Shown in pieces: positions 19,266 to 64,000 of a DNA stretch of 64,000 nt. The stretch's first letter is position 1. Each line of letters starts with the position of its first letter. The stretch spans positions 248,001-312,000 of the forward strand of contig DATNQD010000064.1 of the NCBI GenBank assembly GCA_036702865.1, in the 5' to 3' direction. The DNA is from Trichocoleus sp. (GTDB lineage: Bacteria; Cyanobacteriota; Cyanobacteriia; Elainellales; Elainellaceae). Both the position numbers and the translations under genes were made by a program. The notes beneath the pieces were generated by a model that saw nothing but the letters and a program-made list of their open reading frames with translations, did not search any database and had not been told where the DNA came from.

Positions 19266-19299
19266 TTCACAGCTCAATTCACAGCTCAATTCACAGCAA
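19266..19299. repeat. 12-bp direct repeat TTCACAGCTCAA, 2.8 copies, in the divergent spacer
   Basis: Two perfect copies (19266-19277, 19278-19289) and a partial third (19290-19299) lie head to tail. They sit inside the 478-base spacer between the GntR gene and the dihydropyrimidinase gene. Twelve-base periodicity would place copies on nearly the same helix face, so a regulator site is possible, but simple repeat slippage explains it equally well. The rest of the spacer (19300-19627) is AT-rich and shows no reading frame or other signal that I can support. Confidence 0.6.
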
Positions 19300-19627
19300 C
19301 GGGATCGCCTTCTGCAAAGCGTTTCAGCTAAGTAGAGATTGACTGCAAAGCTCGTTCTAGCACAGCATTACTGTTATCTTTTGTGCGACTACTACAGCAT
19401 AAGCAGCATTAATTTAGATAAAAATAGATACGCTACGCATCAAGAGAAATTACAAGTTATAAAGAAGTATATGGATAAAATGGATCCTTCTAAAAAAATA
19501 GAGTAGTTTGCAAACTTAGGAGCCGCGTCTGCAAGTTGATCGAATCATGACCGTCTCTGAAACACAGAAATATTCAAAATTTCATAAACGATACCAATCT
19601 CAGCAGAACTGCAAAGGAAGAAACTGA

Positions 19628-45070: not shown

Positions 45071-46312
45071 ATGCCTTTTAATCTGCTGAAATTTGCACTC
45101 GCGAAACAGCACCCGGAACCCGCAATGTTCCGCCAGCCCGATCGCCTGAAACCAAGCTATGATGCGGTGATCATTGGGGGCGGTGGTCATGGGTTAGCAG
45201 CCGCTTATTATCTGGCGCGAGATTACGGCATGACAAACGTTGCTGTTCTCGAAAAAGGCTATCTGGGCGGCGGCAATACGGGACGAAACACCACTATTAT
45301 TCGATCGAACTATCTCACTCCAGAAGGCGTGAAGTTTTACGATGAATCCGTGCGACTGTGGCAAGATTTATCGCAAGATTTTGACCTCAATTTGTTTTAT
45401 TCCACGCGGGGGCATTTCACGCTTGCTCACACCGATGCTTCCATGCGAACAATGCGCTGGCGAGCGGAAGTCAACAAACATTTTGGGATTAAGAGCGAAT
45501 GCGTTGACCCCCCTGAAATCCAAAAAGCCTGCCCTCATATGGATCTTTCCTGCGGCGGTAAAGCTCCCGTGATGGGGGCGCTCTATCACGCTCCAGGTAG
45601 CATTGCTCGCCATGATGCGGTGGCATGGGGTTATGGTCGTGGCGCAGATCAACGAGGCGTAGAGATTCATCAGCAAACGGAAGTGCTCGGCATTCAGGTC
45701 GAGTCGGGCAGAGTCACTGGAGTTGAGACTTGCAAAGGCAATATTTCTACACCACGAGTGCTTTGTGCGGTCGCTGGCTTTACGCCTCGCCTGCTGCAAA
45801 TGGTTGGATTACAATCACCGCTTTACATTCATCCCCTACAGGCAATGGTGAGCGAACCGATGAAGCCCTGGCTTGACCCAATCATTGTCTCAGGCAGCCT
45901 GCACGTGTATGTGAGCCAAACCGCACGCGGTGAATTGGTGATGGGCGCATCGCTTGATCCCTACGAACTCCACTCCACCCGATCGACGCTTGCGTTTGTG
46001 GAAGAGCTGGCTGCCCAAATGCTCGAACTGTTTCCGTTTCTTTCTCACGTTAAAATTGTGCGCCAATGGGCAGGGATGGCAGATATGACGCCTGATTTCG
46101 CGCCAATTATGGGGAAAACGGCGATCGATGGCTTTTATCTGGATGCAGGCTGGGGCACCTGGGGCTTTAAGGCAACCCCTGTTTGTGGCAAAACGATGGC
46201 ATATACCGTAGCGAACGATCGCAATCACGAATTAATCGAGGAATTTTCGCTCGATCGATTCCAAAACTATGCGCTATTGGGCGAAAAAGGTGCTGCTTCA
46301 GTCGGGCATTAG
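45071..46312 (+). CDS. mgdA: N-methylglutamate dehydrogenase subunit A (sarcosine oxidase beta-like)
   Basis: A 413-residue FAD-dependent amine oxidoreductase of the SoxB type. The dinucleotide-binding motif IIGGGGHGLAAAYYLA is at 34-49, and GNTGRNTTIIRSNYL follows. ARHDAVAWGY carries His181, at the place where heterotetrameric sarcosine oxidase links FMN covalently. The C-terminus has WAGMADMTPDFAPIMG and DAGWGTWGFKATP. In the N-methylglutamate pathway this subunit oxidises N-methylglutamate back to glutamate. Four genes in B-D-A-G order followed by gmaS and mgsABC identify it as mgdA rather than a sarcosine oxidase gene. The start is ATG 45071; the first 18 residues are poorly conserved-looking. 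Confidence 0.88.
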   Translation: MPFNLLKFALAKQHPEPAMFRQPDRLKPSYDAVIIGGGGHGLAAAYYLARDYGMTNVAVLEKGYLGGGNTGRNTTIIRSNYLTPEGVKFYDESVRLWQDLSQDFDLNLFYSTRGHFTLAHTDASMRTMRWRAEVNKHFGIKSECVDPPEIQKACPHMDLSCGGKAPVMGALYHAPGSIARHDAVAWGYGRGADQRGVEIHQQTEVLGIQVESGRVTGVETCKGNISTPRVLCAVAGFTPRLLQMVGLQSPLYIHPLQAMVSEPMKPWLDPIIVSGSLHVYVSQTARGELVMGASLDPYELHSTRSTLAFVEELAAQMLELFPFLSHVKIVRQWAGMADMTPDFAPIMGKTAIDGFYLDAGWGTWGFKATPVCGKTMAYTVANDRNHELIEEFSLDRFQNYALLGEKGAASVGH

Positions 46313-46322
46313 AAGCAGAAAT

Positions 46323-46357
46323 CCAAAATCCAAAATCCAAAATCTAAAATCTAAAAT
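46323..46357. repeat. Heptanucleotide tandem repeat CCAAAAT/CTAAAAT, five copies
   Basis: Three CCAAAAT and two CTAAAAT units run head to tail in the 60-base gap between mgdA and mgdB. Heptamer arrays of this kind (short tandemly repeated repetitive sequences) are a recognised feature of filamentous cyanobacterial genomes. Their presence inside this operon indicates that it has been resident in a cyanobacterial chromosome. The array sits just ahead of the mgdB ribosome-binding site (agggga). Confidence 0.85.
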
Positions 46358-46372
46358 TTCAGGGGACAAAGA

Positions 46373-46645
46373 ATGAAAATAATGACCTGCCCAATCAATG
46401 GGGCAAGACCGATAACAGAGTTTGTGTACGGTGGAGAAGTTCGTTCAATGCCAGATCCACAAACCGTCGATGATGCAACCTGGGCAGCTTATTTGTATCA
46501 CCGCAATAGCGTTCCTGGAATTAAACAAGAATGGTGGTGTCATACAGCCAGCAATACCTGGTTTATTGCCGAGCGAAATACGCTGACAGATGAGATATTA
46601 CAGACCTACTTGTATGGTGATTTACAAGGTGAGGCAATTGCATGA
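46373..46645 (+). CDS. mgdB: N-methylglutamate dehydrogenase subunit B (sarcosine oxidase delta-like)
   Basis: A 90-residue SoxD-type small subunit. The family pattern is CPxCG...EFxYGGE...W.xYLYxR...EWWxHxxGC..WF...R.T. Here Cys6, EFVYGGE and WAAYLYHRNS are kept, but the second N-terminal Cys is Asn9 (CPINGARP). The later Cys region reads WWCHTASNTWF with Cys56-His57 and no downstream Cys. The zinc site of sarcosine oxidase delta is therefore altered. RBS agggga precedes the ATG at 46373, and the stop overlaps the mgdC start by four bases, so translation is probably coupled. Confidence 0.85.
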   Translation: MKIMTCPINGARPITEFVYGGEVRSMPDPQTVDDATWAAYLYHRNSVPGIKQEWWCHTASNTWFIAERNTLTDEILQTYLYGDLQGEAIA

Positions 46646-49600
46646 GTTACCGACTGCCACCCATTCCGGGCGAATGGATCGATCGCAACCAACCGATTGA
46701 ATTCTTCTTTGAGGGCGATCGGGTTTGGGGCTACGCTGGAGATACGATTACCAGTGCACTCTGGGCTGCTGAAAAACGAGTATTGGGACGCAGTTTTAAA
46801 TACCATCGTCCACGCGGAATCTTGAGTTTTGCCAACCATGATGTGAATGTGCTGATGCAGCAGGGGCAAACGCTCAATGTCCGGGCTGATGTCACTAAGC
46901 TGGAAGCTGGAATGTCGCTTGCGGCAGTGAATACGAATGGCGGCGTCATGGGCGATCGTAACAGCATTTTGAACTTGTTCTCCTCGTTTCTTCCAGTTGG
47001 GTTTTACTACAAAGCCTTTCACAATCGACGACTGTTTCCCTTCTGGGAGCGGATTATTCGCAACATCAGTGGGTTAGGCAAGCTGGATACTGCAACCCCC
47101 CAGATTCGCACTGCCAAACAATATGATTTCTGTGATGTTTTAGTCATTGGCGCAGGCGTCGCCGGACTGTCAGCTGCAATTGCTGCCGCAGAAGCTGGAG
47201 CAGATGTCGTGATTGTGGATGAAAACGCCAGAGCAGGAGGTTCAGGTAGCTATCAACTCGGTGGTGAATGGTCAAGAGCAGAGAAAACCAACGGCTTTGT
47301 GAATGCAGTTAAGATGCACGATCGCATTCAGCTTTACCCTGAGACGATCGCTGCCGGATATTATGCAGATCACTGGATTCCATTAGTGGATGCAAACCGT
47401 TTGACCAAAATGCGGACAAAAGCAGTGATAATGGCGAACGGAGCTTATGAACAGCCTGCGGTATTTCGCAACAACGATCTGCCGGGAATCATGCTGGCAT
47501 CAGCAGCCCAACGCTTGATCTATCGCTACGCCGTTAAGCCCATGAATCAGGCGGTCATGCTGATTGCGAATTGGGATGGCTATCAGGCTGCTTTAGATTT
47601 GATCCAGCAGGGAATTGAGGTGAAGGCGATCGTCGATCTACGTCCTGCTGCAAGGATTTCTTCTATCTCGCCAGCCTTGCAGCGCCAGGGCATTCCGATT
47701 TATACCAGTCATTGTATTTATGAAGCGAGAGGAAATCCGGCAAGGGATGGCGTTGTCAGCGCGGTCATTTGTCCGATCGACGCTTATGGTAATCCGCAAA
47801 CTGAGTCCAAGCAGACGATCGCCTGTGATGGCATTGTGATGAGTGTTGGTTGGGCACCCGCTGCGAACTTGCTGTATCAGGCTGGAGCAAAGATGCGCTT
47901 TGATGATCACTTGCAGCAGTTTGTTCCAGAGCAATTGCCAGAAGGTGTATTTGCCTGTGGACGGGTGAATGGGGTGTATGAGTTTGAGCAGAAAGTGCGA
48001 GATGGTCAGCGGGCTGGATTGGAGGCTGTTGCATTCTTAGATAAATCAAGAGACAGATCAAGAGACGGATCAAGAGACAGATTAAGAGATAGATCAGGAA
48101 AGACAGATTCAGCCCCAAAAATTACCCCTTCCCCAACAGTCGATCGCACCTTATCAGAATCTCCTTCACACCCCTGGGCGATCGTGCCTCATCCAGACGG
48201 CAAAAACTTTGTTGATTTTGATGAGGATCTTCAGTTTAAGGATTTTCCGAATGCGGTTCAGGAAGGATTTGACAACATTGAATTGCTAAAACGATTTACG
48301 ACAGTGGGAATGGGTTCAAGTCAGGGTAAACATTCTAATATGAATGCGCTGAGGATTCTAGCGCGAATCACAGGTAAATCACCAGGTGAAGTTGGGACAA
48401 CCACTGCACGACCTTTCTTTCATCCCGTGCCGTTATCCCATTTAGCAGGACGAGGATTCACACCCGAGCGACAAACGCCTCTCCATTCTCGTCATACTGC
48501 GCTGAATGCAAAGTGGATGCTGGCGGGAACGTGGCGACGACCAGAATATTACCAGCAGCCCGGAAAAAGCCGCGAAGACTGCATTCGATCGGAAGTTGAG
48601 GCAGTTCGTCAGCGGGTCGGCATGATTGATGTGGGCACGTTAGGCAAAATCGAAATTCGGGGGAGTGATGCGGCTGCATTTTTAGAACGAATTTACACCG
48701 GACGCTACAGCAGTTTGAAAGTCGGGATGTCGCGCTATGCCTTGATGCTGGATGAAGCAGGCGTCGTGAGAGATGATGGTGTGGTTGCCCGCTTAGGAAC
48801 TGAGCATTTCTATTTCACAACAACAACTTCTGGTGCAGCGACAATCTACCGGGAGCTTTCTCGCTGGAATACGCTATGGCAGATGGATTGTGGGCTGGTG
48901 AACCTGACCGGAGCCCGATCGGCAATCAACCTGGCTGGACCCAATGCCCGCGCGCTCTTAGCGAAACTAACCGATTGTGATCTTTCCGGTGTTGCTTTTC
49001 CTTATCTCGCAGTACGGGAGACACAAGTTGCCGGAATTTCTGCCTTGTTAACGCGAGTTGGGTTTGTGGGTGAGTGGGGCTACGAAATTCACGTTGCGGC
49101 TGAATCGGCTCCGCTGCTCTGGGATGCAATCTGGGAAGCGGGTCAAGCATGGAATATTGCTCCGTTTGGTGTGGAAGCACAGCGACTTTTGCGGCTGGAG
49201 AAAGGGCATCTCCTTGTTGGGCAGGATACAGATGGATTAACAACACCGGGAGAAGCGGGTTTAGCCTGGGCAGTCAAATTAGATAAGCCATTTTTTATTG
49301 GTCAACGCAGCCTCCAAGCGATCGCCAAACGACCTGTCAAACAAACCCAAGTCGGTTTCATGCTTGCTCCCAATTTTCAGCAAAGACCGCCGCAAGAGTG
49401 CCACTTAATCATTGACGATGGTGAAATTGTTGGTCGGGTGACCAGTATTGCTTTTAGCCCCACCTTGCAGCGCTACATCGGGCTTGCTTTTGTTAAACCA
49501 GAACTGGCAGCAGTCGGTACGCCCCTCTCCATTCGCCTCTCCGATCGCTCGATCGTCATTGCTACGGTTAGCCCAACCCCTTTCTACGACCCAGACAACC

Positions 49601-49647
49601 AGCGCCAGCAGGAAACTGTAATCCAGCGTCAGGAGGTTACAGCATGA
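46642..49647 (+). CDS. mgdC: N-methylglutamate dehydrogenase subunit C (sarcosine oxidase alpha-like)
   Basis: A 1001-residue SoxA-type large subunit. In order: an N-terminal ferredoxin-like domain (GRSFKYHRPRGILSFA at about 50-65), an NAD/FAD-binding domain (VLVIGAGVAGLSAAIAAAEAGA near 166), and a middle region with KNFVDFDED and ELLKRFTTVGMGSSQGKHSN typical of the N-methylglutamate enzyme. A C-terminal aminomethyltransferase (GCV_T-like) domain of about 380 residues then binds tetrahydrofolate (VGMIDVGTLGKIEIRG, GFVGEWGYEIH). The last domain could capture the methyl carbon as methylene-tetrahydrofolate. An Arg/Asp/Ser-rich insert at about 469-486 is encoded by a 12-base repeat. It overlaps both neighbours by four bases. 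Confidence 0.88.
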   Translation: MSYRLPPIPGEWIDRNQPIEFFFEGDRVWGYAGDTITSALWAAEKRVLGRSFKYHRPRGILSFANHDVNVLMQQGQTLNVRADVTKLEAGMSLAAVNTNGGVMGDRNSILNLFSSFLPVGFYYKAFHNRRLFPFWERIIRNISGLGKLDTATPQIRTAKQYDFCDVLVIGAGVAGLSAAIAAAEAGADVVIVDENARAGGSGSYQLGGEWSRAEKTNGFVNAVKMHDRIQLYPETIAAGYYADHWIPLVDANRLTKMRTKAVIMANGAYEQPAVFRNNDLPGIMLASAAQRLIYRYAVKPMNQAVMLIANWDGYQAALDLIQQGIEVKAIVDLRPAARISSISPALQRQGIPIYTSHCIYEARGNPARDGVVSAVICPIDAYGNPQTESKQTIACDGIVMSVGWAPAANLLYQAGAKMRFDDHLQQFVPEQLPEGVFACGRVNGVYEFEQKVRDGQRAGLEAVAFLDKSRDRSRDGSRDRLRDRSGKTDSAPKITPSPTVDRTLSESPSHPWAIVPHPDGKNFVDFDEDLQFKDFPNAVQEGFDNIELLKRFTTVGMGSSQGKHSNMNALRILARITGKSPGEVGTTTARPFFHPVPLSHLAGRGFTPERQTPLHSRHTALNAKWMLAGTWRRPEYYQQPGKSREDCIRSEVEAVRQRVGMIDVGTLGKIEIRGSDAAAFLERIYTGRYSSLKVGMSRYALMLDEAGVVRDDGVVARLGTEHFYFTTTTSGAATIYRELSRWNTLWQMDCGLVNLTGARSAINLAGPNARALLAKLTDCDLSGVAFPYLAVRETQVAGISALLTRVGFVGEWGYEIHVAAESAPLLWDAIWEAGQAWNIAPFGVEAQRLLRLEKGHLLVGQDTDGLTTPGEAGLAWAVKLDKPFFIGQRSLQAIAKRPVKQTQVGFMLAPNFQQRPPQECHLIIDDGEIVGRVTSIAFSPTLQRYIGLAFVKPELAAVGTPLSIRLSDRSIVIATVSPTPFYDPDNQRQQETVIQRQEVTA
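48045..48098 (+). repeat. 12-bp tandem repeat inside mgdC encoding a Ser-Arg-Asp-rich linker
   Basis: Units atcaagagac(a/g)g occur at 48045, 48057, 48069 and 48081 (the last with two changes), with a partial fifth. Because 12 is a multiple of three the array stays in frame and encodes S-R-D-R/G tetrapeptides. It lies at the junction between the flavin/NAD-binding half and the folate-binding half of the protein, a place where extra length is probably tolerated. Confidence 0.85.
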
Positions 49648-50360
49648 ATAGCCCTGCGCGTCTCAGCCCAATTTACGATTCGCTTCAGTCGTTAAGCGAG
49701 TCATTAAGCGGTACATGGTGCAGCATCAATGGAATGCCAACGTTCGCCAGTTCACCGAATGATCTGCTTTATGCCTCTCATCTGGGAATTGCCGATCTCT
49801 CGTTTCTCACTCGTTTTGGTGTCAAAGGAGCAAATGCTGCCGAATGGTTAACCCAGCAGGGACTTCCGATTCCGGCTCGCCCAAATACCTGGAATTGGTT
49901 GCCTGATGGAGGCATCATTGCCCGATTAGGGCTGACAGAATTTTTGCTTGAGGATGGTGTCAATTGCGCCATTGCGCCTCGGTTAGCAACGATCGCTCAG
50001 TCGCCTCCAGCAAGAGTCTATCCAGTGTTGCGGCAAGATCTCGCTTTGGGTCTGGTTGGCGATCGACTCCATGATCTGCTGCGTCAGACCTGTAGCTTTA
50101 ACTTTTCGGCATGTTTACTGGGCGATCGTCCGGTGATTCTCACGACGATGATTGGGGTTGCAGTAACAGTGATTCCGGGTGAACGCAATGGACAGCCCTT
50201 TTACCGCATCTGGTGTGACGGGACATTTGGCAACTATTTTTGGCAAACGCTGATCGAGATTGCAAATTCGCTAGAGGGAGGGGCGATCGGCGCAGAACTG
50301 CTGTGGGATGAGGGATTCACTGATTTTCAGAATGGGGAGATGGGGGAGCAAATGGAGTAA
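49644..50360 (+). CDS. mgdD: N-methylglutamate dehydrogenase subunit D (sarcosine oxidase gamma-like)
   Basis: A 238-residue SoxG-type subunit, distantly related to the folate-binding aminomethyltransferase fold. Typical features are the early [20 protein letters not shown]-like stretch (residues about 50-69) and the middle LTEFLLEDG. The C-terminal [28 protein letters not shown] theme follows (about residues 174-201). It overlaps the end of mgdC by four bases. Gamma is the most variable subunit of these complexes, so assignment relies partly on its position as fourth gene after B, D and A. Confidence 0.82.
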
Positions 50361-50452
50361 GTTTTTTCCTGCTCAAGCAGCCCTTAAGGAAGAGAAAGTT
50401 CAAGCGATCGCAAGCCAAAAGCATCACGTTAACCAACGCTGGAGTAAACCAA

Positions 50453-51781
50453 ATGAACTTAGCAGAAGCAAAAACCTTTCTCGAAGCGCATCAAGTTAAA
50501 TTCGTGCTGGCGCAATTTGTCGATATTCATGGCGTTGCAAAAACCAAAGCTGTCCCCGCTTCTCACTTTGAAGACATCCTCAATCCAGGTGCGGGGTTTG
50601 CTGGATTTGCAGTCTGGGGATTGGGCATGGATCCACATAGCCCGGACTATATGGCAGTTGGTGATCTCTCAACCTTATCGCTAGTCCCCTGGATGCCCGG
50701 ATTTGCGCGAATTGTCTGCGTTGGGCATGTGAAAGGCGAACCCTATGCGTATGATGCTCGCTTTGTTCTGATGCAGCAGATTGAGCGACTCAAACAGCGA
50801 GGCTGGATGCTGAATACTGGCGTCGAACCTGAATTTGTCTTACTTCGTAAAGATGAACAGGGACAAATTTATCCGTTTGATGCAACTGACACGTTAGACA
50901 AACCCTGCTATGACTTTCGCGGATTATCTCGTAGCGCCGTATTTCTCGAAAAACTGGTGACCAATCTGCAAACCGTTGGATTTGATGTTTATCAGATTGA
51001 CCATGAGGATGCCAATGGACAGTTTGAAATCAATTACACCTACACCGATTGCCTCACCACTGCCGATCGCTATATCTTCTTCAAAATGGCAGCCTCCGAA
51101 ATTGCCAAGGAATTAGGGCTGATTTGCTCTTTCATGCCAAAACCCTTTGCCAACCGCACTGGAACCGGGATGCACATTCATTTATCAATTTCTGACGGCA
51201 GTTCCAACCTTTTTGCTGATGAGGCTGATCCCCGTCAGTTGGGGCTTTCCCCGCTGGCATATCACTTCCTAGGTGGCTTGCTTGCCCATGCAGATGCTTT
51301 GACCGCCATTTGTGCCCCAACGATTAATTCCTATAAACGATTAGTAGTTGGACGATCGCTGAGTGGCGCAACTTGGGCACCTGCTTACATCACCTACGGC
51401 GACAATAACCGATCGAGCATGGTGCGGGTTCCGGGCGGACGATTAGAACTGCGGCTGGCAGATGGTTCCTGTAATCCCTATTTAGCAACGGCTGCGGCAA
51501 TTGCTGCGGGGTTAGACGGCATTGAAAAAGCCATTGATCCTGGAGAACCTTACAACTTAAACCTGTACAACCTTTCTGAAGCCGATCTGAAAGACAAGGG
51601 CATCCGTACCTTACCTCAGAGTTTGCACGAAGCGATCGAGGCATTAGAGTCTGATGAAGTCATTAAAGGCGCATTAGGAATTCTGGCAGATGAATTTATT
51701 AATCTAAAGCGAATGGAATGGGTGGAATATATGCGCCACGTTTCGGAATGGGAAGTGGAACGCTATTTGGAGTTTTTCTAA
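50453..51781 (+). CDS. gmaS: Gamma-glutamylmethylamide synthetase (GlnT/type III glutamine synthetase family)
   Basis: A 442-residue glutamine-synthetase-fold enzyme. In the N-methylglutamate pathway GmaS ligates methylamine to glutamate with ATP, giving gamma-glutamylmethylamide. Visible features are [13 protein letters not shown] at the start, EPEFVLL (metal Glu), [30 protein letters not shown] (catalytic beta-grasp region, with the His), [20 protein letters not shown] (cited here as the VPGGRLELR core), and the short C-terminus of the GlnT group. It starts with ATG 92 bases after mgdD and one base before mgsA. An ordinary glutamine synthetase cannot be excluded by motif alone; the flanking mgd and mgs genes decide the call. 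Confidence 0.88.
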
Positions 51782-51782
51782 G

Positions 51783-52679
51783 ATGTGTGGAATTATCGGA
51801 CTGTTGATCAAAAAACCAGAATGGCGTGAATCTTTAGGTGAATTGCTTGTGCCAATGTTGATTGGAATGAGCGATCGAGGACCTGACTCTGCCGGACTCG
51901 CTATCTTCACGGCTACCCTGCCAGATCCCCATCGCAAATACAGCCTCTACTGGAGCGGTAAAGACTGCAATTGGGCAAGTCTGGCACAATCATTCCAGAC
52001 CGCTTTTGAGACAACGCCTGATCTACAAATCAATCAAAATCAAGCAGTATTGACCTCAGAGCAGCCACCCAATCGAATTAAGCAATGGCTCAAAACGAAC
52101 CAGCCGCACCTGCATTTGCTTTCAACAGGTCGCACGATCGATCTCTACAAAGACACGGGTAAACCAGAAACGGTTGCAGAACGCTATCACTTCAAAACGC
52201 TGAAAGGCTCTCATGCGATCGGGCATACCCGCATGGCAACAGAATCGGCAGTGACGCCTGCCCATGCTCACCCTTTTACAGCAGGAGAAGATTTTTGTTT
52301 GGTGCATAATGGTTCACTGTCCAATCCCTATTCCATTCGTCGTCAACTGGAACCCCTGGGAATTCACTTTGAAACCGACAACGACACAGAAGCTGCCTGC
52401 CGCTTTTTAGAATGGCGAATGCGAGAAGGGGACGACCTGGAAACTGCCGTTCAGCATGGATTTGCGGCGTTAGACGGCTTTTACACTTTCCTCATGGGAA
52501 CTGCCGATAAACTGGCACTGGTGCGAGATGCCTTTGCCTGTAAGCCAGCAGTGGTGGCAGAAACCGCAGATTATGTGGCAATCGCTTCAGAATTTCGATC
52601 GCTGGCTCACCTGCCAGATGTCAAAAATGCTCACCTCTATGAGCCAGAGCCAGAGGAGTTATATGTATGGACAGTGTGA
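51783..52679 (+). CDS. mgsA: N-methylglutamate synthase subunit A (class II glutamine amidotransferase-like)
   Basis: A 298-residue Ntn-type amidotransferase corresponding to the N-terminal domain of glutamate synthase. The nucleophile is Cys2 (MCGIIG). Also present are SDRGPDSAG, the substrate-site HTRMATES (GHTRMAT), the NGSLSN oxyanion motif and DTEAACRFLE. In MgsABC it would hydrolyse gamma-glutamylmethylamide and pass methylamine to 2-oxoglutarate to form N-methylglutamate. Start ATG is one base after gmaS. It overlaps mgsB by 13 bases. Confidence 0.88.
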   Translation: MCGIIGLLIKKPEWRESLGELLVPMLIGMSDRGPDSAGLAIFTATLPDPHRKYSLYWSGKDCNWASLAQSFQTAFETTPDLQINQNQAVLTSEQPPNRIKQWLKTNQPHLHLLSTGRTIDLYKDTGKPETVAERYHFKTLKGSHAIGHTRMATESAVTPAHAHPFTAGEDFCLVHNGSLSNPYSIRRQLEPLGIHFETDNDTEAACRFLEWRMREGDDLETAVQHGFAALDGFYTFLMGTADKLALVRDAFACKPAVVAETADYVAIASEFRSLAHLPDVKNAHLYEPEPEELYVWTV

Positions 52680-53368
52680 TTCAGAAGACGATCGTTTTTG
52701 ATCTGGCTCAAACCTCCCTGCGCGAAGTCAACTACGCTCTGCACCAACTGGACGCAGACAGCAGACAAGCAATCAAAATTCTCAATCCTGATGGCGCACA
52801 TAATGTAGCAGTTGGGCTGAATGCACCCGTGGCGATCGGAATTGCAGGTCATGCAGGCTACTATGCGGCAAGCATGAATCAGCAGGCAACAGTGACGATC
52901 GATGGCAATGTCGGCACAGGAGTTGCTGAAAATATGATGTCGGGTCGGGTGCATGTGAAGGGCTTTGCATCGGTTTCTGCGGGTGCTTCCGCGCATGGAG
53001 GGCTGCTGATTATCGATGGTAATGCCAGTCTGCGCTGCGGGATTTCGCTCAAAGGGGCAGATATTGTTGTCGGGGGCAGCGTTGGTAGCTTTGCTGCATT
53101 CATGGCACAGGCAGGACGGCTGGTGATCTGTGGCGATGCAGGTGAGGCATTAGGAGATTCATTGTATGAAGCCGTGATTTATGTACGAGGCAACATCCGA
53201 TCGCTCGGTGCAGATGCCCAACAAGAACCGATGTCTGACACTGATCATCAAACGGTTGCTGAGTTGTTGGAGCAAGCAGGTTTCTCATACAGCCCTCAAG
53301 AATTTAAACGAGTCGCTTCCGCCAAGCAGCTCTACCACTGGAATGCGGATGCTAATCAGGAGTATTAA
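52667..53368 (+). CDS. mgsB: N-methylglutamate synthase subunit B (GltB C-terminal beta-helix-like)
   Basis: A 233-residue protein matching the GXGXG beta-helix domain of glutamate synthase large subunit as a separate polypeptide. The repeating pattern of beta-strand turns is clear: IDGNVGTGVAENM, VHVKGFASVSAGASA, IIDGNASLRCG, IVVGGSVGSFAAFMA, VICGDAGEALGDS and VYVRGN-like (IYVRGN) turns. It ends three bases before mgsC. In split systems this subunit scaffolds the synthase. The regular turns make the fold assignment secure. Confidence 0.88.
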   Translation: MDSVIQKTIVFDLAQTSLREVNYALHQLDADSRQAIKILNPDGAHNVAVGLNAPVAIGIAGHAGYYAASMNQQATVTIDGNVGTGVAENMMSGRVHVKGFASVSAGASAHGGLLIIDGNASLRCGISLKGADIVVGGSVGSFAAFMAQAGRLVICGDAGEALGDSLYEAVIYVRGNIRSLGADAQQEPMSDTDHQTVAELLEQAGFSYSPQEFKRVASAKQLYHWNADANQEY

Positions 53369-53370
53369 CA

Positions 53371-54735
53371 ATGACGCCATCTCAATCCAATCAATCCATT
53401 TCCCAAGAAGAATCCTGGGGGTACGATCGCCGCACACTGAACTACATTCAAAATGCAGCGGCACATGGTCTGTATGAAATTCGCGGTTTAGGTGCAAAAC
53501 GACGGCTGCCTCATTTTGATGATCTGGTATTTTTGGGTGCTTCCATGTCTCGCTATCCGCTGGAAGGCTATCGGGAAAAATGCACGACTCAAACCATTCT
53601 CGGCACTCGCTATGCAAAGCAACCGATCGAGCTGGCAATCCCCATTACGATCGCTGGCATGAGTTTTGGGTCGCTCTCTGCCAATGTCAAAGAATCACTG
53701 GGACGGGCAGCAACCGCAGTCGGTACTTCCACCACAACAGGTGATGGGGGCATGACGCCAGAAGAGCGGCTCTCTTCTAAAACGCTGATCTACCAGTGTC
53801 TACCCTCCCGCTACGGATTCAACCCCGACGATGTCCGAAAAGCAGATGCGATCGAGATTGTCATTGGTCAGGGGGCAAAGCCCGGTGGTGGCGGAATGCT
53901 GCTTGGACAAAAAATTAATCCGCGAGTTGCTCAAATGCGAACCCTGCCCGAAGGTGTGGATCAACGCTCTGCCTGTCGCCATCCTGACTGGACTGGTCCC
54001 GATGATCTGGCAATCAAAATCCAGCAGCTACGAGAATTAACGGACTGGGAAAAGCCAATTTACGTCAAAGTGGGAGCGACCCGCACCTTCAACGATGTCA
54101 AACTAGCGGTTCATGCGGGTGCTGATGTTGTTGTTGTGGATGGAATGCAGGGAGGAACTGCCGCAACCCAAACGGTATTTATTGAACATGTGGGTATCCC
54201 TACGCTAGCAGCCGTCCGACAAGCAGTGGATGCGCTGGAAGAGATGAACATGAAGGGGCAAGTCCAGCTCATTGTGTCCGGTGGCATTCGCACGGGAGCC
54301 GATGTTGCGAAAGCGATCGCCATGGGGGCTGATGCCGTTTCGATCGGTCAGGGCATTCTCGTTGCTTTGGGCTGCAACAGTGAAACCTATGTGCAAAAGG
54401 GAGAGCATTTCTCAGCCGTTGAAGATTATGCGGCGATCGGCACAGCCCCCGGATATTGCCACCATTGCCATACAGGAAAATGTCCTGTAGGAGTAACAAC
54501 CCAGGATGAGCATCTGGAAAAGCGCCTCGAACCAGAAGTCGGTGCCCGACGGGTCAAAAACTATCTGCAAACGCTGAATATGGAACTGACAACGATCGCC
54601 CGTGCTTGCGGAAAGCAAAATGTCCATCACCTGGAACGAGAAGATCTGGCAGCATTGACGATCGAAGCGGCTGCAATGTCGCGGTTGCCTCTCGCAGGAA
54701 CGAATTGGATTCCTGGCGTTCAGTCCAGTATTTGA
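53371..54735 (+). CDS. mgsC: N-methylglutamate synthase subunit C (FMN/Fe-S glutamate synthase-like)
   Basis: A 454-residue FMN-binding synthase domain protein, equivalent to the central TIM barrel of glutamate synthase. Seen are PITIAGMSFGSLSANVKESLG, TTTGDGGM, the substrate and flavin stretch GQGAKPGGGGML and IYVKVGATR. VVDGMQGGTAATQTVF, IVSGGIRTGADVAKAIAMGA and iron-sulfur cysteines Cys363, Cys366 and Cys371 (CHHCHTGKCPVG) follow. It would reduce the imine formed from methylamine and 2-oxoglutarate. It is the last gene of the cluster; the downstream GST gene converges on it. Confidence 0.9.
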   Translation: MTPSQSNQSISQEESWGYDRRTLNYIQNAAAHGLYEIRGLGAKRRLPHFDDLVFLGASMSRYPLEGYREKCTTQTILGTRYAKQPIELAIPITIAGMSFGSLSANVKESLGRAATAVGTSTTTGDGGMTPEERLSSKTLIYQCLPSRYGFNPDDVRKADAIEIVIGQGAKPGGGGMLLGQKINPRVAQMRTLPEGVDQRSACRHPDWTGPDDLAIKIQQLRELTDWEKPIYVKVGATRTFNDVKLAVHAGADVVVVDGMQGGTAATQTVFIEHVGIPTLAAVRQAVDALEEMNMKGQVQLIVSGGIRTGADVAKAIAMGADAVSIGQGILVALGCNSETYVQKGEHFSAVEDYAAIGTAPGYCHHCHTGKCPVGVTTQDEHLEKRLEPEVGARRVKNYLQTLNMELTTIARACGKQNVHHLEREDLAALTIEAAAMSRLPLAGTNWIPGVQSSI

Positions 54736-56339: not shown

Positions 56340-57260
56340 ATGGATAAGTTTGACAGTATGCGTGCCTTTACTCAGGTAGTGGCTTCGGGTGGCTTTGCAG
56401 CAGCAGCAAGGGAAATGGGATTGTCGCGATCGACAGTCAACAAACTCGTAATCGGCTTAGAGAACGAACTGGGTGTACAACTGCTGCACCGCAGTACGCG
56501 AGTGGTGACTCCCACTGAGATGGGGTTGGCATTTTATGAGCGTTGCTTGGAAATTTTGGCAAGTTTGGAAGAGGCAGAACGATCGATTACCCAACTTCAT
56601 GAAGAGCCGAGAGGACGGTTGCGCGTGAATGCTCCAATGTCCTTTGGCACAATCCATTTGGCTCCTGCTATAGCGGATTTTCTGGTGCAATATCCCGAAC
56701 TCCAGGTTCAACTCACCTTGAACGATCGCTTCATTGACCCGATCGAAGAAGGCTTTGATATCACAGTGCGAATTGCGAAACCCCAGGAGGCTGCAAGTTT
56801 GATTGTGCATCCGTTAACATTGGCTCCGCAGGTGCTCTGTGCTGCTCCAAGCTATCTGGCAACCCATGGAACTCCCACTCACCCCAAGGAGCTGCGCCAC
56901 CATTCTTGCTTGCACTATGGTCAACTTATGATTGAGGATCGGTGGACGTTAATGGGACCAGACGGAGAACAAACGATCGCGATCAATGGGGTGCTGTGTT
57001 CTAACAATGGGGAAGTCCTCAAAGATGCAGCCGTTCGCGGATTGGGGATTACCCTGCTGCCGACGTTTATTGTGGGGCAAGAATTGCAACAGGGAAAGCT
57101 GCAAGTTGTTTTGGCTGCTTATCGTCCACCCGAACTGGTAATTTCTGTCATTTATCCAGTCAATCGTCATCTATCAACAAAGGTGCGGCTACTGGTTGAT
57201 TTCCTGCAACAACGGTTTGGTCATGAGCAAGGCATTCTTGACAGCAAACGTTTCTTGTAA
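56340..57260 (+). CDS. LysR-type transcriptional regulator (CrgA/PecT-like subgroup)
   Basis: A 306-residue LysR regulator from ATG 56340 ([19 protein letters not shown]); a TTG 30 bases earlier is less likely. The helix-turn-helix spans about residues 1-60 ([35 protein letters not shown]), and the rest is the two-lobed effector domain ([12 protein letters not shown]). It is divergent from the pirin-GST pair and most likely their regulator. Its last 72 bases overlap the 3' end of the convergent amidase gene, an unusually long convergent overlap. Confidence 0.9.
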
Positions 57261-58622
57261 CCCATAAGCAAACTGAAGCATTGCTGCCTCACCTCGCGGT
57301 TTACCAATGAGTTGCATCCCAATGGGCAAACCAGAAGATGTCCAACCACAAGGAATAGAAACGCTGGGTAGACCTGTTAAGGAGATGGTATAGGTGATCG
57401 CTAAATAATCAATCATATTTCGCAGCGGCGTTTGATTAATCTCCAAAATTTCACCTTGAGTGTGTAAGTAAGGAGGAATACTGGCGCTTACCGTTGCAAG
57501 AATGTCATAGTCTTCAAAGAACTTCAAAAAATTGAGATAAAGGCGATCGCGCTCTGCTTCAGCTTGAAGAAGCTCTGTGGCTGAAATATTCGCTCCCCGT
57601 TCCACATTCCAGCGAACGCTTTCGGATAATAAATCACGATGCTGCTCATAATGCTGTTTTTGTTTGTGATGTAAGGTAGCAGCTCGGATCGTTTCAAAAG
57701 CAAATTGCGCCATTGAACAGTCAGGATGAGTTTCGGTGATCTGTGCACAAACAGGGGAGATTTGGGCGATCGATTGACGAAACACAGCTTCCACTTCTCG
57801 ATCGATCACAGCAATGCCCAGATTGGGACTAAAACCAACTCGAAGGGAATTGCCCGATGCCATCGAGAAATTAGGTATCTTCCAAGATTCGCTGCCGATG
57901 GAAATGGGGTCGCGCCAATCTTCTCCTGCCATCACAGACAGCATGAGTGCCGCATCTTCAACGTTACGCGCCAGAATTCCATCGGTTTCCAGAGAATCCC
58001 GCAGTAAGGGTTTGCGTCGTCGAGGAATGCGTCCGGCAGAAGGGCGGAGTCCCACAATGCCACAGAAGCTCGCCGGAGTGCGAACAGAGCCACCCATATC
58101 GGTTCCCTGCGCTAGATGCCCCATTCCCATTGCGACAGCAACGGCTGCTCCTCCACTGGAACCTCCAGAACTGCGATCGGGGTCGTAAGGGTTTGCGGTA
58201 GGCCCGTATAAAGCATTGGTGCAGTGCGCTCCCATCCCAAACTCTGGCGTGTTAGTTTTGCCGATCAAAATCCCTCCCGCTGCCCGTAGACGAGCCACAC
58301 AGAGTTCATCTTGCTGCGGTACATTGTCTTTGTAGATCAGCGAACCAAAGGTCGTTCGGACATCGGCAGTCGGCGTTAAATCCTTCACCGTGAATGGTAC
58401 GCCATGCAGCACGCCAACAGCTTCTCCCCGATCGATCGCTGCATCAGCACGGATTGCTTCTGCTTCAGCCCGTTTGCGACAGAGCGTGATCATGGCTTTG
58501 AGGCGATCGTTGTGTCGATCAATTTGATCAAAGCAGGCAGCAACAGCATCAATTGATCGAATTTGTTGGCTATGAATCGCACGGGCGAGTTCTGTGGCAG
58601 ATAGCTGATGAATTGCCGTCAT
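57189..58622 (-). CDS. Amidase-signature family amidohydrolase (first of two)
   Basis: A 477-residue amidase-signature enzyme that would hydrolyse a carboxamide, ureido or carbamoyl bond. The catalytic triad is readable: Lys80 (PFTVKD), cis-Ser155 (SSGGSSGG) and nucleophile Ser179 ([11 protein letters not shown]). It is the last gene of a minus-strand unit after the decarboxylase/racemase-like gene, whose stop overlaps its start by four bases. The second amidase upstream is clearly divergent in sequence, so the two probably act at different steps. The C-terminus overlaps the LysR gene by 72 bases. Confidence 0.9.
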
Positions 58623-59368
58623 ACTTGCGTCAACACAGGCTGCTGGGATTCAGTAAACAACCGTCCCCACCCCTTTACAACCATCGGATCAACCCCCGCT
58701 ATTTTCAGGGATTTCCAGACGGCTGCTGCAATCGTGTCATAAATCGGAATGCCCAATTCCTGTTCAAGCTCATCCACGAGCGGTGCGGCTTGTAAGTTGG
58801 TACAGAAGGTCACGATCGCTTCAGGTTGTTTTTGAGCAACTGCTCGAATCATCGAAGTAATTTGATCGGCTGTGACTTCTGAGAAGGAAAAGTTTACTGA
58901 TAGATTGAGATGCTGTTCTGCAACACAATGAAAGCCTTCTGTAGCAAAGTTAGCAATGGTGCGTTCCTGCACGTCATCCAGGTAAGGCGTGACTAAAGCA
59001 AAATTATGGATCTGACGATCGCGCAAAATTTCTGCAATTGCCAGAACTGAGGTCGTTGCTGGAATTCCGGTGGTGTTGGTAATTTCCCGGCAAAGCTGAA
59101 CATCTGCATCAAATCCTAACCAACCCGCAGAAGTTCCGTTCCAGGCAATTACGTCTACTTTTGCATCGGCTAAAAGCTGAGCGGCATTGATCAAAGGCGC
59201 ATTGTCAAACTGTTCTAACGCCTGCTGGCGCAGCGAAATTTCGGTCACGCGAAACCGTCCAAAATGGGCAGATACATTTGGTAATTGGGCAACCATTGCA
59301 CTGGTAACAGGTTCCAGGACGGTATTCGAAGAAGGGGTTAACATTCCTAAAAGGGTACGCTTCGTCAT
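58619..59368 (-). CDS. Arylmalonate decarboxylase / maleate isomerase-like protein (Asp/Glu racemase superfamily)
   Basis: A 249-residue member of the Asp/Glu racemase superfamily; the start LLGMLTPSSNTVLEPV is typical of the maleate cis-trans isomerase group. The superfamily uses two Cys residues in racemases. Here the first site is Gly78-Thr79-Ser80 and only the second, Cys189 (VTFCTNL), is present. This is the same single-Cys arrangement as arylmalonate decarboxylase (Gly74-Thr75-Ser76, Cys188). It is therefore more likely a malonate-type decarboxylase or isomerase than a racemase. It sits between two amidase genes, so its substrate probably comes from one of them. Confidence 0.75.
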   Translation of the reverse strand: MTKRTLLGMLTPSSNTVLEPVTSAMVAQLPNVSAHFGRFRVTEISLRQQALEQFDNAPLINAAQLLADAKVDVIAWNGTSAGWLGFDADVQLCREITNTTGIPATTSVLAIAEILRDRQIHNFALVTPYLDDVQERTIANFATEGFHCVAEQHLNLSVNFSFSEVTADQITSMIRAVAQKQPEAIVTFCTNLQAAPLVDELEQELGIPIYDTIAAAVWKSLKIAGVDPMVVKGWGRLFTESQQPVLTQV

Positions 59369-59400: not shown

Positions 59401-60765
59401 TCATCTTGGGTTCAAAACTTGTTGATTTTGGGGAACATGAGTAAGACTTTGCAGCGACAGACATTTCATTGCCCAATCTGCGATCGCCAGTAAATTCCAG
59501 TCGCCTAACCGTTGCCCTACTAATTGAATTCCCAGCGGTAAGCCGTTCGCTGCGGTTCCAGCAGGAATGCTGATGGCAGGTAGCCCACAGAGCGTCCAGA
59601 GGGCACAAAAGATCGGAGAACCCGTATTCTCTAATCCTTGGGGAGCAGTTCCAGTCGTGACGGGTGTGAGGATGGCATCATAGTCCGCCCAGAGCTGGTC
59701 TAGGATCACGTTATAGCGGATTGCAGCTTGACGAGCCTTAGCATGGGCGATCGCAGGCATCGTTCGTCCCTGTTCAATGATTTGGCGGAGTTTATCAGAC
59801 ATTTGATCAGCATGGCGATCGTAATCTGCACCATGATGGGTTGCCATGCCAACAGCAGATAGCACACTGATATGCTCAAAGCAGGCATCAAATTCAGACG
59901 GTAAATTGACTTCTGTAATCATCGCGCCTGCCTTCATGAGCGCTGAAATACTGTGCAACAACGCTCGTTCTGCCTCCGGTTCAATTTGCGACCAGTAGGG
60001 GGATAGAACCAGCGCAAATTTGGGAGGACGTTGAGATCCTGAAGCTGGAACCAGAACCTCATGACAGTCTGGATCACGATGATCAACAATCGCTAAAACA
60101 TTCAACACTCGCGAAATATCGGCAACACTGCGAGCAAAAAATCCAACGTGATCGAGTTCTTGGCTGCCAAGCATAACGCCATAGCGTGAAATCACACCAA
60201 AACTGGGCTTAAAGCCGACGATTCCACAGTAAGCAGCAGGACGCAGAATCGACCCCACCATTTGAGTCCCGATCGCCACAGGCACCATATTATCTGCAAC
60301 CGCAGCAGCAGATCCGCTGGAACTTGCACCCGGCGTGTGTTCTAAATGATGAGGATTACGGGTCTTACCAGGACGGGCGATCGCATATTCGCTTGTCACT
60401 GTTTTCCCTAAAATAATCGCACCTGCTGAACGTAACCGCTCAACAACGGCTGCCTCATAATTAAACTGCTGATCCGCATAAATGGGAGTTCCCCACCGCG
60501 TTGGCATATCGATGGTTGCAACTGTATCTTTGATGCCGATTGGAATACCATGCAAGGGCTTTAAATGCTTCCCTCTGGCTTGCGCGACATTCAGCCTTTT
60601 AGCGATTTGAAAGGCATCATTGAGATTGAGATATTCCCAAGCCTCCACATCTGCTTGTCGTTCAGCAATCCGTTCTAAGCACGATTGCAGTAATTCAACC
60701 GCTGATAGTTTTCTTTGTTGAATAAACTTTAGAGCTTGCGTAGCTGTGAGGTGATGGCTCAGCAT
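59401..60765 (-). CDS. Amidase-signature family amidohydrolase (second of two)
   Basis: A 454-residue amidase-signature protein. Triad residues are Lys79 (IGIKD), cis-Ser148 within GASSSGSAA (where the usual form is GGSSGG) and nucleophile Ser172 (GTQMVGSILRPAAYCG). It lies 32 bases before the decarboxylase-like gene and 46 bases after the transthyretin-like gene, within the same unit. Similarity to allophanate/AtzF-, urea-amide- or aryl-acylamidases cannot be resolved by eye. The altered Ser/Gly loop may reflect a substrate different from that of the other amidase. Confidence 0.88.
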   Translation of the reverse strand: MLSHHLTATQALKFIQQRKLSAVELLQSCLERIAERQADVEAWEYLNLNDAFQIAKRLNVAQARGKHLKPLHGIPIGIKDTVATIDMPTRWGTPIYADQQFNYEAAVVERLRSAGAIILGKTVTSEYAIARPGKTRNPHHLEHTPGASSSGSAAAVADNMVPVAIGTQMVGSILRPAAYCGIVGFKPSFGVISRYGVMLGSQELDHVGFFARSVADISRVLNVLAIVDHRDPDCHEVLVPASGSQRPPKFALVLSPYWSQIEPEAERALLHSISALMKAGAMITEVNLPSEFDACFEHISVLSAVGMATHHGADYDRHADQMSDKLRQIIEQGRTMPAIAHAKARQAAIRYNVILDQLWADYDAILTPVTTGTAPQGLENTGSPIFCALWTLCGLPAISIPAGTAANGLPLGIQLVGQRLGDWNLLAIADWAMKCLSLQSLTHVPQNQQVLNPR

Positions 60766-60811: not shown

Positions 60812-61165
60812 TCATCCACCTCGGAACAATGAGAACCCCCACGGGGATACTTTCAACGGCAAGTGGTAATGTTGCTCCACATCGCCAATGCCAAACCGAA
60901 AAGGAACAACATCGAGAAATGGGGTATCAGGGAAGGAATAGCCAAGCTGGCGGTAGAAATCACCGATGTAGAACACTACTTCATAAACGCCACGATCGCA
61001 CCCCTTTCCTTCCACAATGGGATGATCGAGAAGCCCTTTGCCAGACAGGACTCCAGCAGCGATCGGTTGAGCAGGTTCGCTGATGCTGAAGATTTCTACC
61101 TTCATTCCTACAGCAGGTAATCCGCGCGTTACATCCACAACATGAACTGAAATTCCACCCGCCAT
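60812..61165 (-). CDS. Transthyretin-like protein of the 5-hydroxyisourate hydrolase family, catalytic residues altered
   Basis: A 117-residue protein with the HIUase/transthyretin fold: N-terminal ISVHVVDVTRGLPA with His8, GVYEVVFYIGDFYRQLG in the middle, PFLDVVPFRFGI, and HYHLPLKVSPWGFSLFRGG at the end. HIUases need an Arg in the DGR motif (Leu45 here) and end in YRGS (FRGG here, residues 114-117). The catalytic Arg and Ser are therefore missing, while the histidines remain. It probably acts on something other than hydroxyisourate. Genes for urate oxidase or OHCU decarboxylase are absent from the window. It is located between the permease and amidase genes. Confidence 0.78.
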   Translation of the reverse strand: MAGGISVHVVDVTRGLPAVGMKVEIFSISEPAQPIAAGVLSGKGLLDHPIVEGKGCDRGVYEVVFYIGDFYRQLGYSFPDTPFLDVVPFRFGIGDVEQHYHLPLKVSPWGFSLFRGG

Positions 61166-61317: not shown

Positions 61318-62172
61318 TTACTCAGCTTTAACCAAAAACTTAGATAAGCCCGAAACCCGTTCCATCAAGATCATGAGAATCGCTGTAAATAAAATCAGAA
61401 TCCCCGAAACTGCTGCTGCCCGGACATCTAAATCATTTTCAATCATTGACCACATCCGAATTGGCAAAACCTCAGTTCTCGCATCAGACAAAAACAGAGA
61501 TACCGTAATATTGTCGAATGAACTCAAGAATGCCATAAACGAGCCAGTGATCACGCCCTGTTTAATCAGCGGTAACGTGACATGAAAAAACGTGTAGACA
61601 GGAGTTGCTCCCAAAACGGTTGACGCTTCTCGGAGAACATTTCCAAGCTGGGTGAGGCTGGCGAGCGTGGTTCTGACAATATAGGGAATACAAATCACGA
61701 TATGGCTGATCACCAACGTCGTAATCGATAGCCGAATACCAATCAGGTTAAAGAAGGATAGCATTCCTAACCCCACCGCAATTCCCGGTAAAGCAAGCGG
61801 AGACATCACCAGAGCATCCATGGCTGCAACCCAACGCGCTCGACTGCCTGCCATTGCCAACGATGCACAAACACCCAGCACAACACAGCCGATCGTGGTC
61901 AATAAGGCGACCTGAAAGCTAGTGGCTGCCGCTGTCCATAACTCTGGATAGTCCAGCAACGCCGAATACCACTGCAACGAAAAACCAGGTGGTGGAAATC
62001 GTAGCGTTCGGGCAGAACTGAAGGAAGAAATCAATACAATAACAGTGGGAAGGGTAAGCACTGCCAGACTGAAAAAGGCAATTCCCCAAATGACCCATTG
62101 AAAAGAGAGGCGATCGAGCTTCGTTAAGTTACGAGAATTGGATCGAACAACCGTTGATGAAGTGACTGACAT
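61318..62172 (-). CDS. PotC-like ABC transporter permease (second importer)
   Basis: A 284-residue permease with six hydrophobic segments and an EAA-type loop (LREASTVLGATPVYTFFHVTLP). It belongs to the polyamine/spermidine-type importer family. It starts ten bases after the PotB-like gene and lies 152 bases ahead of the transthyretin-like gene. It shares only family-level similarity with the importer at 12.4-17 kb, so the two transporters are not a recent duplication. Confidence 0.88.
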   Translation of the reverse strand: MSVTSSTVVRSNSRNLTKLDRLSFQWVIWGIAFFSLAVLTLPTVIVLISSFSSARTLRFPPPGFSLQWYSALLDYPELWTAAATSFQVALLTTIGCVVLGVCASLAMAGSRARWVAAMDALVMSPLALPGIAVGLGMLSFFNLIGIRLSITTLVISHIVICIPYIVRTTLASLTQLGNVLREASTVLGATPVYTFFHVTLPLIKQGVITGSFMAFLSSFDNITVSLFLSDARTEVLPIRMWSMIENDLDVRAAAVSGILILFTAILMILMERVSGLSKFLVKAE

Positions 62173-62182
62173 AGGTAAACTC

Positions 62183-63028
62183 CTAGCGAATGTAGGTTTG
62201 GCTTCTCTGCCCTAAAGCACTCAGTCCAAACACAATAATCAAAACCATTGCTAATAGAATGGCTGACACTGCAGCAGCAAATGGACCGTTCAGCAACACA
62301 ACACCTTGCTGATAAATCAACGTTGGCATATACATAATTTGCCCACCCCCGATGATAGAAGGAGTGACAAAAGAACTCACGGTCAGCGCAAACACCAGCA
62401 AACAACCGGAGATAATACCGGGTAGAGTCAGCGGAAAGATAATCTTCCAGAAGGTGCGCCATGCACCACCGCCCAAACTCTCGGAAGCTGCTGCCAAGCG
62501 AGGATCAATTTGGGAAATTGAGGCAATAATCGGCAGAATCATCAGCGGCAGTTGAATCTGGGTCATGGCGATCGCCACACCATGATGGGTAAACAGCAGC
62601 TTGACTGGTTCTTGAATGATGCCCAGGTTTTGCAGGAGGGAGTTGACCAATCCTTGCTTACCCAAAATCACTACCCATCCAAAAGTACGCACGACTGCGC
62701 TAGTTAGCAGAGGCAGCAGAATCAAAAACGTTAAAATGCCTTTCCACTTTGCCGGAGCATTGACATAGAAATAGGCAACGGGATACCCAAAAATCAAACA
62801 GCCCAGCGTTACCTGTATCCCTAGCCCAAAGGTATCAGTCAAGACTTTAACGTTGACCGACTCACGAAAAAACTCCCAATATTGGGCGAGAGAAAAACCA
62901 CCCGATGCAGATTGCACACTGGTTGCCAGCAGAATGGCTAACGGTGCAACATAAAACAGATGTAAAAAGAGGGCTAACGGCAACGCCAATTGCCATTCAC
63001 GCGGTGAAAATAACTGTGCAGCCTTCAT
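62183..63028 (-). CDS. PotB-like ABC transporter permease (second importer)
   Basis: A 281-residue permease with about six membrane segments and the EAA loop AASESLGGGAWRTFWKIIFPLTLP (core ASESLGGGAWRTF at about residues 180-192). It precedes the PotC-like gene and follows the binding-protein gene by 15 bases, so the three form one operon. The ATPase gene is expected upstream, beyond the window. Confidence 0.88.
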   Translation of the reverse strand: MKAAQLFSPREWQLALPLALFLHLFYVAPLAILLATSVQSASGGFSLAQYWEFFRESVNVKVLTDTFGLGIQVTLGCLIFGYPVAYFYVNAPAKWKGILTFLILLPLLTSAVVRTFGWVVILGKQGLVNSLLQNLGIIQEPVKLLFTHHGVAIAMTQIQLPLMILPIIASISQIDPRLAAASESLGGGAWRTFWKIIFPLTLPGIISGCLLVFALTVSSFVTPSIIGGGQIMYMPTLIYQQGVVLLNGPFAAAVSAILLAMVLIIVFGLSALGQRSQTYIR

Positions 63029-63043: not shown

Positions 63044-64000
63044 TTAGGCTTGAACGGTCTTATCAAATTGCTCAACCCACTCCGTTCGATGCTTATTAAT
63101 CGTTGCCCAATCGAGGAATTCTAGTCTGGCGAAGATCTCATCCAGGTTTTTGCCTAGCTTTTGGGCGATCGCTTCTGGAATTGCCACATTTTTGTTTGTG
63201 GGCAAAACCGCATTCATCTCAACCATCTTGGTTTGCACATCTGTACTGATAGCAGTGTCGATGTAAGCTGCCACTAAGTCCAAACTGGCTGATGGGCTTT
63301 TCACAATACTCATCATCGGAGTCAGGGCAAATCCACCTTCTTTCGGCATCACCCAATCGATATCCACTCCTTTTGATTGGAGCAACTTGACGCTATTCAA
63401 ATCATGAGGCGCAATATCGACTTCCCCCTGTTGAAATAGCGTGATTAATGCTCCTGCGTTGGCAACCACCCCCGCCAAATTAGGGGCTAACTCTTTGACA
63501 GCCTTAAAGGCAGGTTCCAGGTTCTCAACGCTGCCGCCTCGCATCTGGGCAATCTTCTGCATGAACCCGATCGTGTGATTGTTCTTCATCGCCATCAGAG
63601 CAACCCGCCCTTTGTACTTCGCATCCCAGAGGTCTGCCCAGGAAGTGGGTGGAGTTGTAATCACCTTCGGGTTATAGGCAATCCCGACTGCCTGCACTCC
63701 AATTAAAGGACCCCAGGTATCCTGGCTCTGAAACCGCTCCGCGAGTTCACCGTAGTTCTTCAAACGATCGACTGGCAGCTTTTGAAACAGTTCCTCTTTC
63801 GGTGCGCCTTCAAATACGCCCGAATCTAAAGAGACGACATCAAAAGGAGGGCTGTTCGGAGAGGCTTTCAGCTTCGCCACCTGATCCGCAGAAACCAGTG
63901 GCACCAGCGCCGCCTCAGCACTAGCAGATGTACTAAATGCAGGGATTAGAACATTCCGGTTAAACTGCTCCCATGAACCAGGCAGGGTAGTAGCAATCAA
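63044..64000 (-). CDS. PotD/PotF-like solute-binding protein, 5' part outside the window
   Basis: The last 318 residues of a periplasmic binding protein; the reading frame is open to the window edge, so the signal peptide and start lie beyond it. The two-lobed fold pattern is clear: YNPKVITTPPTSWADLWDAKYKGRVALM, then PHDLNSVKLLQSKGVDIDWV, and the C-terminal AVLPTNKNVAIPEAIAQK (given as separate stretches). It resembles polyamine/iron/thiamine-type binding proteins. The ligand is unknown; co-transcription with two amidase genes suggests an amide- or ureido-containing compound. Confidence 0.88.
   Translation of the reverse strand: MIATTLPGSWEQFNRNVLIPAFSTSASAEAALVPLVSADQVAKLKASPNSPPFDVVSLDSGVFEGAPKEELFQKLPVDRLKNYGELAERFQSQDTWGPLIGVQAVGIAYNPKVITTPPTSWADLWDAKYKGRVALMAMKNNHTIGFMQKIAQMRGGSVENLEPAFKAVKELAPNLAGVVANAGALITLFQQGEVDIAPHDLNSVKLLQSKGVDIDWVMPKEGGFALTPMMSIVKSPSASLDLVAAYIDTAISTDVQTKMVEMNAVLPTNKNVAIPEAIAQKLGKNLDEIFARLEFLDWATINKHRTEWVEQFDKTVQA

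Follow-up and report, generated by a model that had tools for sequence, protein, structure and literature searches.

The locus described here raises the question of what is done by a protein that has kept the fold of 5-hydroxyisourate hydrolase (HIUase) and has lost its catalytic arginine. The protein has 117 amino acids and is encoded, from an ATG start, on the minus strand at positions 60812 to 61165 of a 64,000-nucleotide stretch of a Trichocoleus sp. contig (here called the window). We followed up a first-pass annotation, made from the sequence of the window, by comparing this HIUase paralog with canonical HIUases at the levels of residues, phylogeny, genome content, and gene neighborhood.

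HIUase fold and residue switch

The fold is intact, as the first-pass annotation had stated. The paralog matches PF00576 (Pfam; E 4.7e-24, 85.5 bits against a cut-off of 25.3), and its AlphaFold2 model (mean pLDDT 89.6) has its best structural matches in the HIUases of Brucella and Herbaspirillum (4q14 and 8uw4; Z 18.2, rmsd 1.5 to 1.6 Å), with concordant results from Foldseek. It nevertheless falls below the cut-off of the curated HIUase equivalog model TIGR02962 (82.4 versus 87.45 bits), whereas the canonical copy of the same genome scores 120.2 bits.

Alignment to solved HIUases places K43-G44-L45 (Leu45 codon, 61031 to 61033) where canonical enzymes have D-G-R and F114-R115-G116-G117 (60815 to 60826) where they have YRGS. 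His8 (61142 to 61144) and the His99-Tyr100-His101 motif (60863 to 60871) are kept, so that the paralog shares with known HIUases (UraH, PucM, and kpHIUH) the fold, the histidine pair His8 and His101, the HYH motif, and the Arg-Gly preceding the C terminus. The Leu at the DGR arginine, the FRGG end, and the retained histidines had all been read in the first pass, and the alignment confirmed each of them.

We then compared 26 members of the paralog clade (the relatives from a genome scan plus plasmid and further genome loci, all of them cyanobacterial or alphaproteobacterial) with 78 canonical HIUases, 73 from loci and 5 from solved structures. The alignment with verified HIUases, which the first-pass annotation had named as the check, returned Arg at position 45 and Tyr at position 114 in all 78 canonical sequences; in the clade, position 45 is T, A, L, Q, or S and never Arg (0/26), and position 114 is Phe in 23 of 26 members. 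A new Lys at position 105 (60851 to 60853) is invariant in the clade (26/26) and absent from the canonical set (0/78). Alignment to vertebrate transthyretin (TTR), with TTR numbering that agrees with the end points of the structural alignment (model residue 117 = TTR 122), equates this Lys with Leu110 and would place it in the central cavity, and equates His101 with Thr106. The catalytic His8 (PMC8272043) and the second catalytic His, His101, are invariant in the clade (26/26) and in the canonical set (78/78 for His8). Positions 45 and 105 thus split the paralog clade from canonical HIUases without exception in the sampled set, and further near-complete switches at positions 5, 7, 10, 40, 41, 63, 89, 102, and 113 show, at the level of the alignment, a coordinated change.

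Residue roles in kpHIUH suggest how these positions may matter. In that enzyme, His7 and His92 form the catalytic pair that deprotonates water, and two Arg41 residues polarize the C6 carbonyl; the ring nitrogens are held by Tyr105, and the C terminus contributes contacts of its backbone; R41K is about five-fold slower, and S108A has little effect (PMC8272043). Because of these roles, we read the clade as keeping the water-activating part of the site and replacing the substrate-holding part: the Arg at the pocket mouth and the Tyr hydroxyl are lost, and an invariant Lys would be placed in the pocket. The first-pass annotation had instead stressed loss of the C-terminal Ser, which carries little weight given the mild S108A phenotype and the fact that the last residue varies across the clade (A, G, V, I, or S), with 3 of 26 members ending in FRGS. 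Judged by the alignment, this Ser is not diagnostic of paralog versus canonical enzyme, and we rejected its loss as the key change. The Tyr-to-Phe change at position 114 and the Leu-to-Lys change at position 105, both missed in the first pass, are stronger changes than Ser to Gly.

A monophyletic clade in genomes that retain canonical HIUase

When 84,980 species genomes were searched with the window protein, 14 relatives with 48 to 73% identity were found, in Cyanobacteria and Alphaproteobacteria, the search being non-exhaustive in other phyla. In the tree, the clade is monophyletic: a single long stem branch with a support of 100/100 separates it from the other sequences. More distant plasmid matches in Sinorhizobium (L025), Vibrio (L197), Deinococcus (L198), and Ruegeria (L199) were rejected as members, being canonical HIUases with DGR and YRGS. 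The paralog is rare in the phylum of the window, where only the window's own genome carries it among 291 evenly drawn genomes, and transfer from Alphaproteobacteria into cyanobacteria is plausible.

Measured against its nearest relative with unsaturated dS (L004; dS is saturated in the other pairs), the paralog is under purifying selection (dN 0.197, dS 1.85, dN/dS 0.106). A decaying duplicate without function might have been suspected, since a nearby canonical HIUase gene is broken by a TAG codon and decay thus occurs in the region. However, the low dN/dS ratio speaks against it, as does the conservation of the paralog in two phyla with its new Lys unchanged, and we set this reading aside as extremely improbable. 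Because of the dN/dS value and a residue change common to the whole clade, the paralog is, as far as sequence comparison can tell, a product of neither chance nor decay.

A canonical HIUase is also encoded in every paralog-bearing genome examined (49 genomes, with overlaps between samples removed). This was the case in 11 of 11 genomes of the first paralog-bearing set, in 7 of 7 paralog-bearing Alphaproteobacteria (from a 387-genome sample in which 118 genomes had any family member), in 5 of 5 paralog-bearing genomes of the window's own family, and in all 32 paralog-bearing Azospirillales (any family member, 71/82). Three genes of the family occur in the genome of the window: the paralog, a canonical copy that is intact and adjoins an HpxO-type FAD urate hydroxylase gene on a different contig (79), and a canonical copy with DGR and YRGS that is interrupted by one in-frame TAG. 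The last lies outside the window on the minus strand of its contig (contig 64, 314606 to 314965; L018:9607-9966), separated by about 80 bp from the downstream ABC ATPase gene, with which the operon of the paralog begins; a sequencing error is possible.

Constant company of this kind would be expected if the paralog were an accessory subunit in mixed tetramers with canonical HIUase, the more so as the HIUase active site sits between subunits (PMC8272043) and as the two genes are sometimes adjacent (loci L005, L010, and L014, and, with a broken copy, the window operon). Most genomes, however, have the two genes apart and with different partners, and the proteins differ at many positions on and near the inner strands, so that we regard mixed tetramers as quite improbable.

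Gene neighborhoods of the paralog

The paralog belongs to a minus-strand operon with the order ABC ATPase, two solute-binding proteins, two permeases, paralog, amidase A, arylmalonate decarboxylase (AMDase)-like protein, and amidase B. Profile matches identify the solute-binding protein at 63044 to 64000 (cut by the window edge), the PotB-like permease (62183 to 63028), the PotC-like permease (61318 to 62172), amidase-signature protein A (59401 to 60765, 46 bp downstream of the paralog), and, with alignment, a protein of the arylmalonate decarboxylase/Asp-Glu racemase family with the Gly-Thr-Ser and single Cys of AMDase (58619 to 59368). Amidase-signature protein B follows at 57189 to 58622, overlapping the AMDase-like gene by 4 bp. 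The remaining importer genes, for the second binding protein and for the ATPase, lie beyond the window on the full contig (L018:7234-9526). Upstream of the operon and past the broken HIUase are an unrelated gene, an OHCU decarboxylase gene about 3 kb further, a flavin-reductase-like gene, and an amidohydrolase gene. The earlier statement that the operon is without other uricolytic genes therefore holds inside the window but not for the full contig, which has the TAG-broken HIUase and the OHCU decarboxylase.

Two other regions of the window can be described from translations. Positions 8062 to 21040 resemble a separate pyrimidine/beta-alanine catabolic region, with an omega-aminotransferase, a uracil phosphoribosyltransferase-like protein, an ABC transporter, an N-carbamoyl amidohydrolase, a GntR regulator, and a dihydropyrimidinase (19628 to 21040). 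Positions 45071 to 54735 encode sarcosine-oxidase/N-methylglutamate-dehydrogenase-like subunits together with glutamine-synthetase-like and glutamate-synthase-like proteins (the gene at 53371 to 54735 matches Glu_synthase by profile) and resemble the N-methylglutamate (methylamine) pathway, which is unusual in a cyanobacterium.

A tblastn comparison with fixed queries of 21 paralog loci and 16 canonical loci, mostly from the same genomes, revealed a distinct and conserved gene cluster around the paralog. ABC permeases occur at 16/21 paralog versus 1/16 canonical loci, amidases at 15/21 versus 1/16, AMDase-like proteins at 12/21 versus 0/16, dihydropyrimidinase HydA at 8/21 versus 0/16, and hydantoin-racemase-like proteins at 7/21 versus 0/16; the canonical counts are slightly depressed because some of those loci span less than 20 kb, and related genomes do not count as independent. 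The full partner set is seldom complete within one locus, and HydA and hydantoin racemase are absent from the operon of the window. Annotated plasmid loci have the same partner sets, except that in Rhodobacterales TRAP or tripartite tricarboxylate transporters replace the ABC importer. In FACHB-502 (L005), the neighboring canonical HIUase gene is intact and comes after the operon; Bradyrhizobium has canonical HIUase and PuuE genes within about 5 kb of the paralog.

Several smaller features were noted at individual loci. Between the AMDase-like and amidase B genes of L004, a short segment (8685 to 8837) matches the C terminus of the L006 dihydropyrimidinase at 65% identity and is probably a HydA remnant. 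In a related cyanobacterium, a short canonical-HIUase-like remnant immediately follows amidase B (L125:3304-3387) and represents a second decayed copy beside the operon. L006 also encodes a cytidine/guanine-deaminase-type protein (PF00383; 9382 to 9834), divergent from the paralog gene and possibly a further member of the module. At one locus (L130), an FAD monooxygenase gene and an Asp/Glu-racemase family gene 7 to 9 kb away hinted at nicotinate degradation; we read them as an unrelated neighboring cluster.

The neighborhoods bear on whether the paralog still hydrolyzes 5-hydroxyisourate, as a tolerated variant, or a methylated form of it. The same fold and His pair, the tolerance of kpHIUH to R41K and S108A, and the public annotation of the paralogs as hydroxyisourate hydrolase all favor such activity. 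A methylated substrate has a precedent in the caffeine C-8 oxidation genes tmuH and tmuD, which encode a putative TM-HIU hydrolase and a TM-OHCU decarboxylase (PMC4408171) and thus form an additional pair of the HIUase/UraD type, directed at a urate analogue. Against both versions stand the strict Arg difference at position 45 and the unfailing presence of a canonical HIUase in the genomes examined, and the urate oxidases HpxO or PuuD are seldom near the paralog (2/21 loci, versus 10/16 canonical loci). None of cdhABC, tmuM, and tmuD was recognized among the neighbors at the loci read, and on this ground we set aside a caffeine or methylurate cluster at these loci. The decarboxylase partner is mostly AMDase-like. 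On balance, we consider retained activity on 5-hydroxyisourate or its methylated forms unlikely.

The same loci bear on a noncatalytic, ligand-binding or regulatory role like that of the hormone carrier transthyretin. Transthyretin has the same fold, descends from HIUase through loss of substrate-holding residues, and so offers a precedent for lost chemistry; position 45 is variable in the clade, and the paralog can stand between transporter and enzyme genes. However, transthyretin has Lys15 and Thr106 in place of the HIUase histidines, whereas the bacterial paralog keeps His8 and His101, which like the new Lys are invariant (26/26), and it sits in catabolic operons among enzymes. A binding role of this kind is, in our view, rather improbable.

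Decarboxylase partners

The AMDase-like protein keeps the Gly74-Thr75-Ser76, Tyr126, and single-Cys188 pattern among the published criteria for AMDase (PMC4996985), having one Cys where racemases and isomerases have two. It lacks Pro14-Pro15 and Gly189 (PSS and CTN instead) and falls below the NCBIfam arylmal_decarb cut-off. Because the Pro pair and Gly189 are missing, we are unsure of the reaction that this sequence would predict. AMDase homologues of this kind are unlikely to act on arylmalonates, and the natural role of the family is obscure (PMC4996985).

Three Rhodobacterales loci instead have, beside or near the paralog, relatives of UraD that form a divergent OHCU decarboxylase subfamily (L124:10672-11166, L024:9471-9998, and L021:9107-9607). 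They keep the HP and EQ motifs, and the genome of L124 carries a second UraD gene, a canonical one that adjoins its canonical HIUase gene. This subfamily is probably also misannotated as UraD. Two decarboxylase families therefore adjoin the same ring-opening homologue, which is why we read the loci in terms of a parallel pathway. The reuse of successive homologous steps has general precedent in purine and pyrimidine routes (PMC4016543).

A putative route parallel to urate degradation

Clade-wide residues, coexistence with canonical HIUase, and a distinct neighborhood support a changed role for the paralog. To this extent the first-pass proposal, of either a new substrate or a binding role, stood. 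With modest confidence, we favor a neofunctionalized HIUase paralog, a putative hydrolase of another cyclic ureide in a pathway parallel to that from urate to allantoin. The variable position 45 would also fit relaxed use of the site.

According to this proposal, the paralog would hydrolyze a ring C-N bond of a cyclic ureide other than 5-hydroxyisourate, imported or made locally, with Lys105 as a possible new contact to a carbonyl or carboxylate. A carboxylated product would be decarboxylated by the AMDase-like protein, or by the UraD paralog at the three Rhodobacterales loci; the resulting hydantoin-type compound would be racemized by the hydantoin-racemase-like protein where present and opened by dihydropyrimidinase, and amidases would cleave the product. 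These steps would parallel those of HIUase, UraD, allantoin racemase, allantoinase, and allantoate amidohydrolase. The later steps also recall hydantoin utilization (hydantoin racemase, D-hydantoinase, and N-carbamoyl hydrolase): the HydA and racemase families occur at paralog loci, but amidase-signature enzymes stand in for the carbamoylase. Hydantoin utilization is not known to have a transthyretin-fold or AMDase-like component, and a literature search on HIUase together with the partner enzymes brought up no account of the paralog cluster.

More tentatively, as a possibility that we would not yet call probable, the clade may represent a third functional class of the transthyretin superfamily, next to HIUase and transthyretin. 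It would be a Lys-containing cyclic-ureide hydrolase heading an undescribed route in which a different nitrogen heterocycle, taken up from outside, is degraded by the logic of urate-to-allantoin conversion: ring opening, then decarboxylation through an AMDase-like protein or UraD paralog, hydantoin racemization, hydantoinase, and amidase.

For all members of the clade, which occur in Azospirillum, Bradyrhizobium, and some cyanobacteria, automatic annotation as hydroxyisourate hydrolase is probably wrong. In plant-associated and photosynthetic bacteria, the clade points to a module that would import a cyclic ureide and degrade it, and it may offer the AMDase-like family a candidate pathway.
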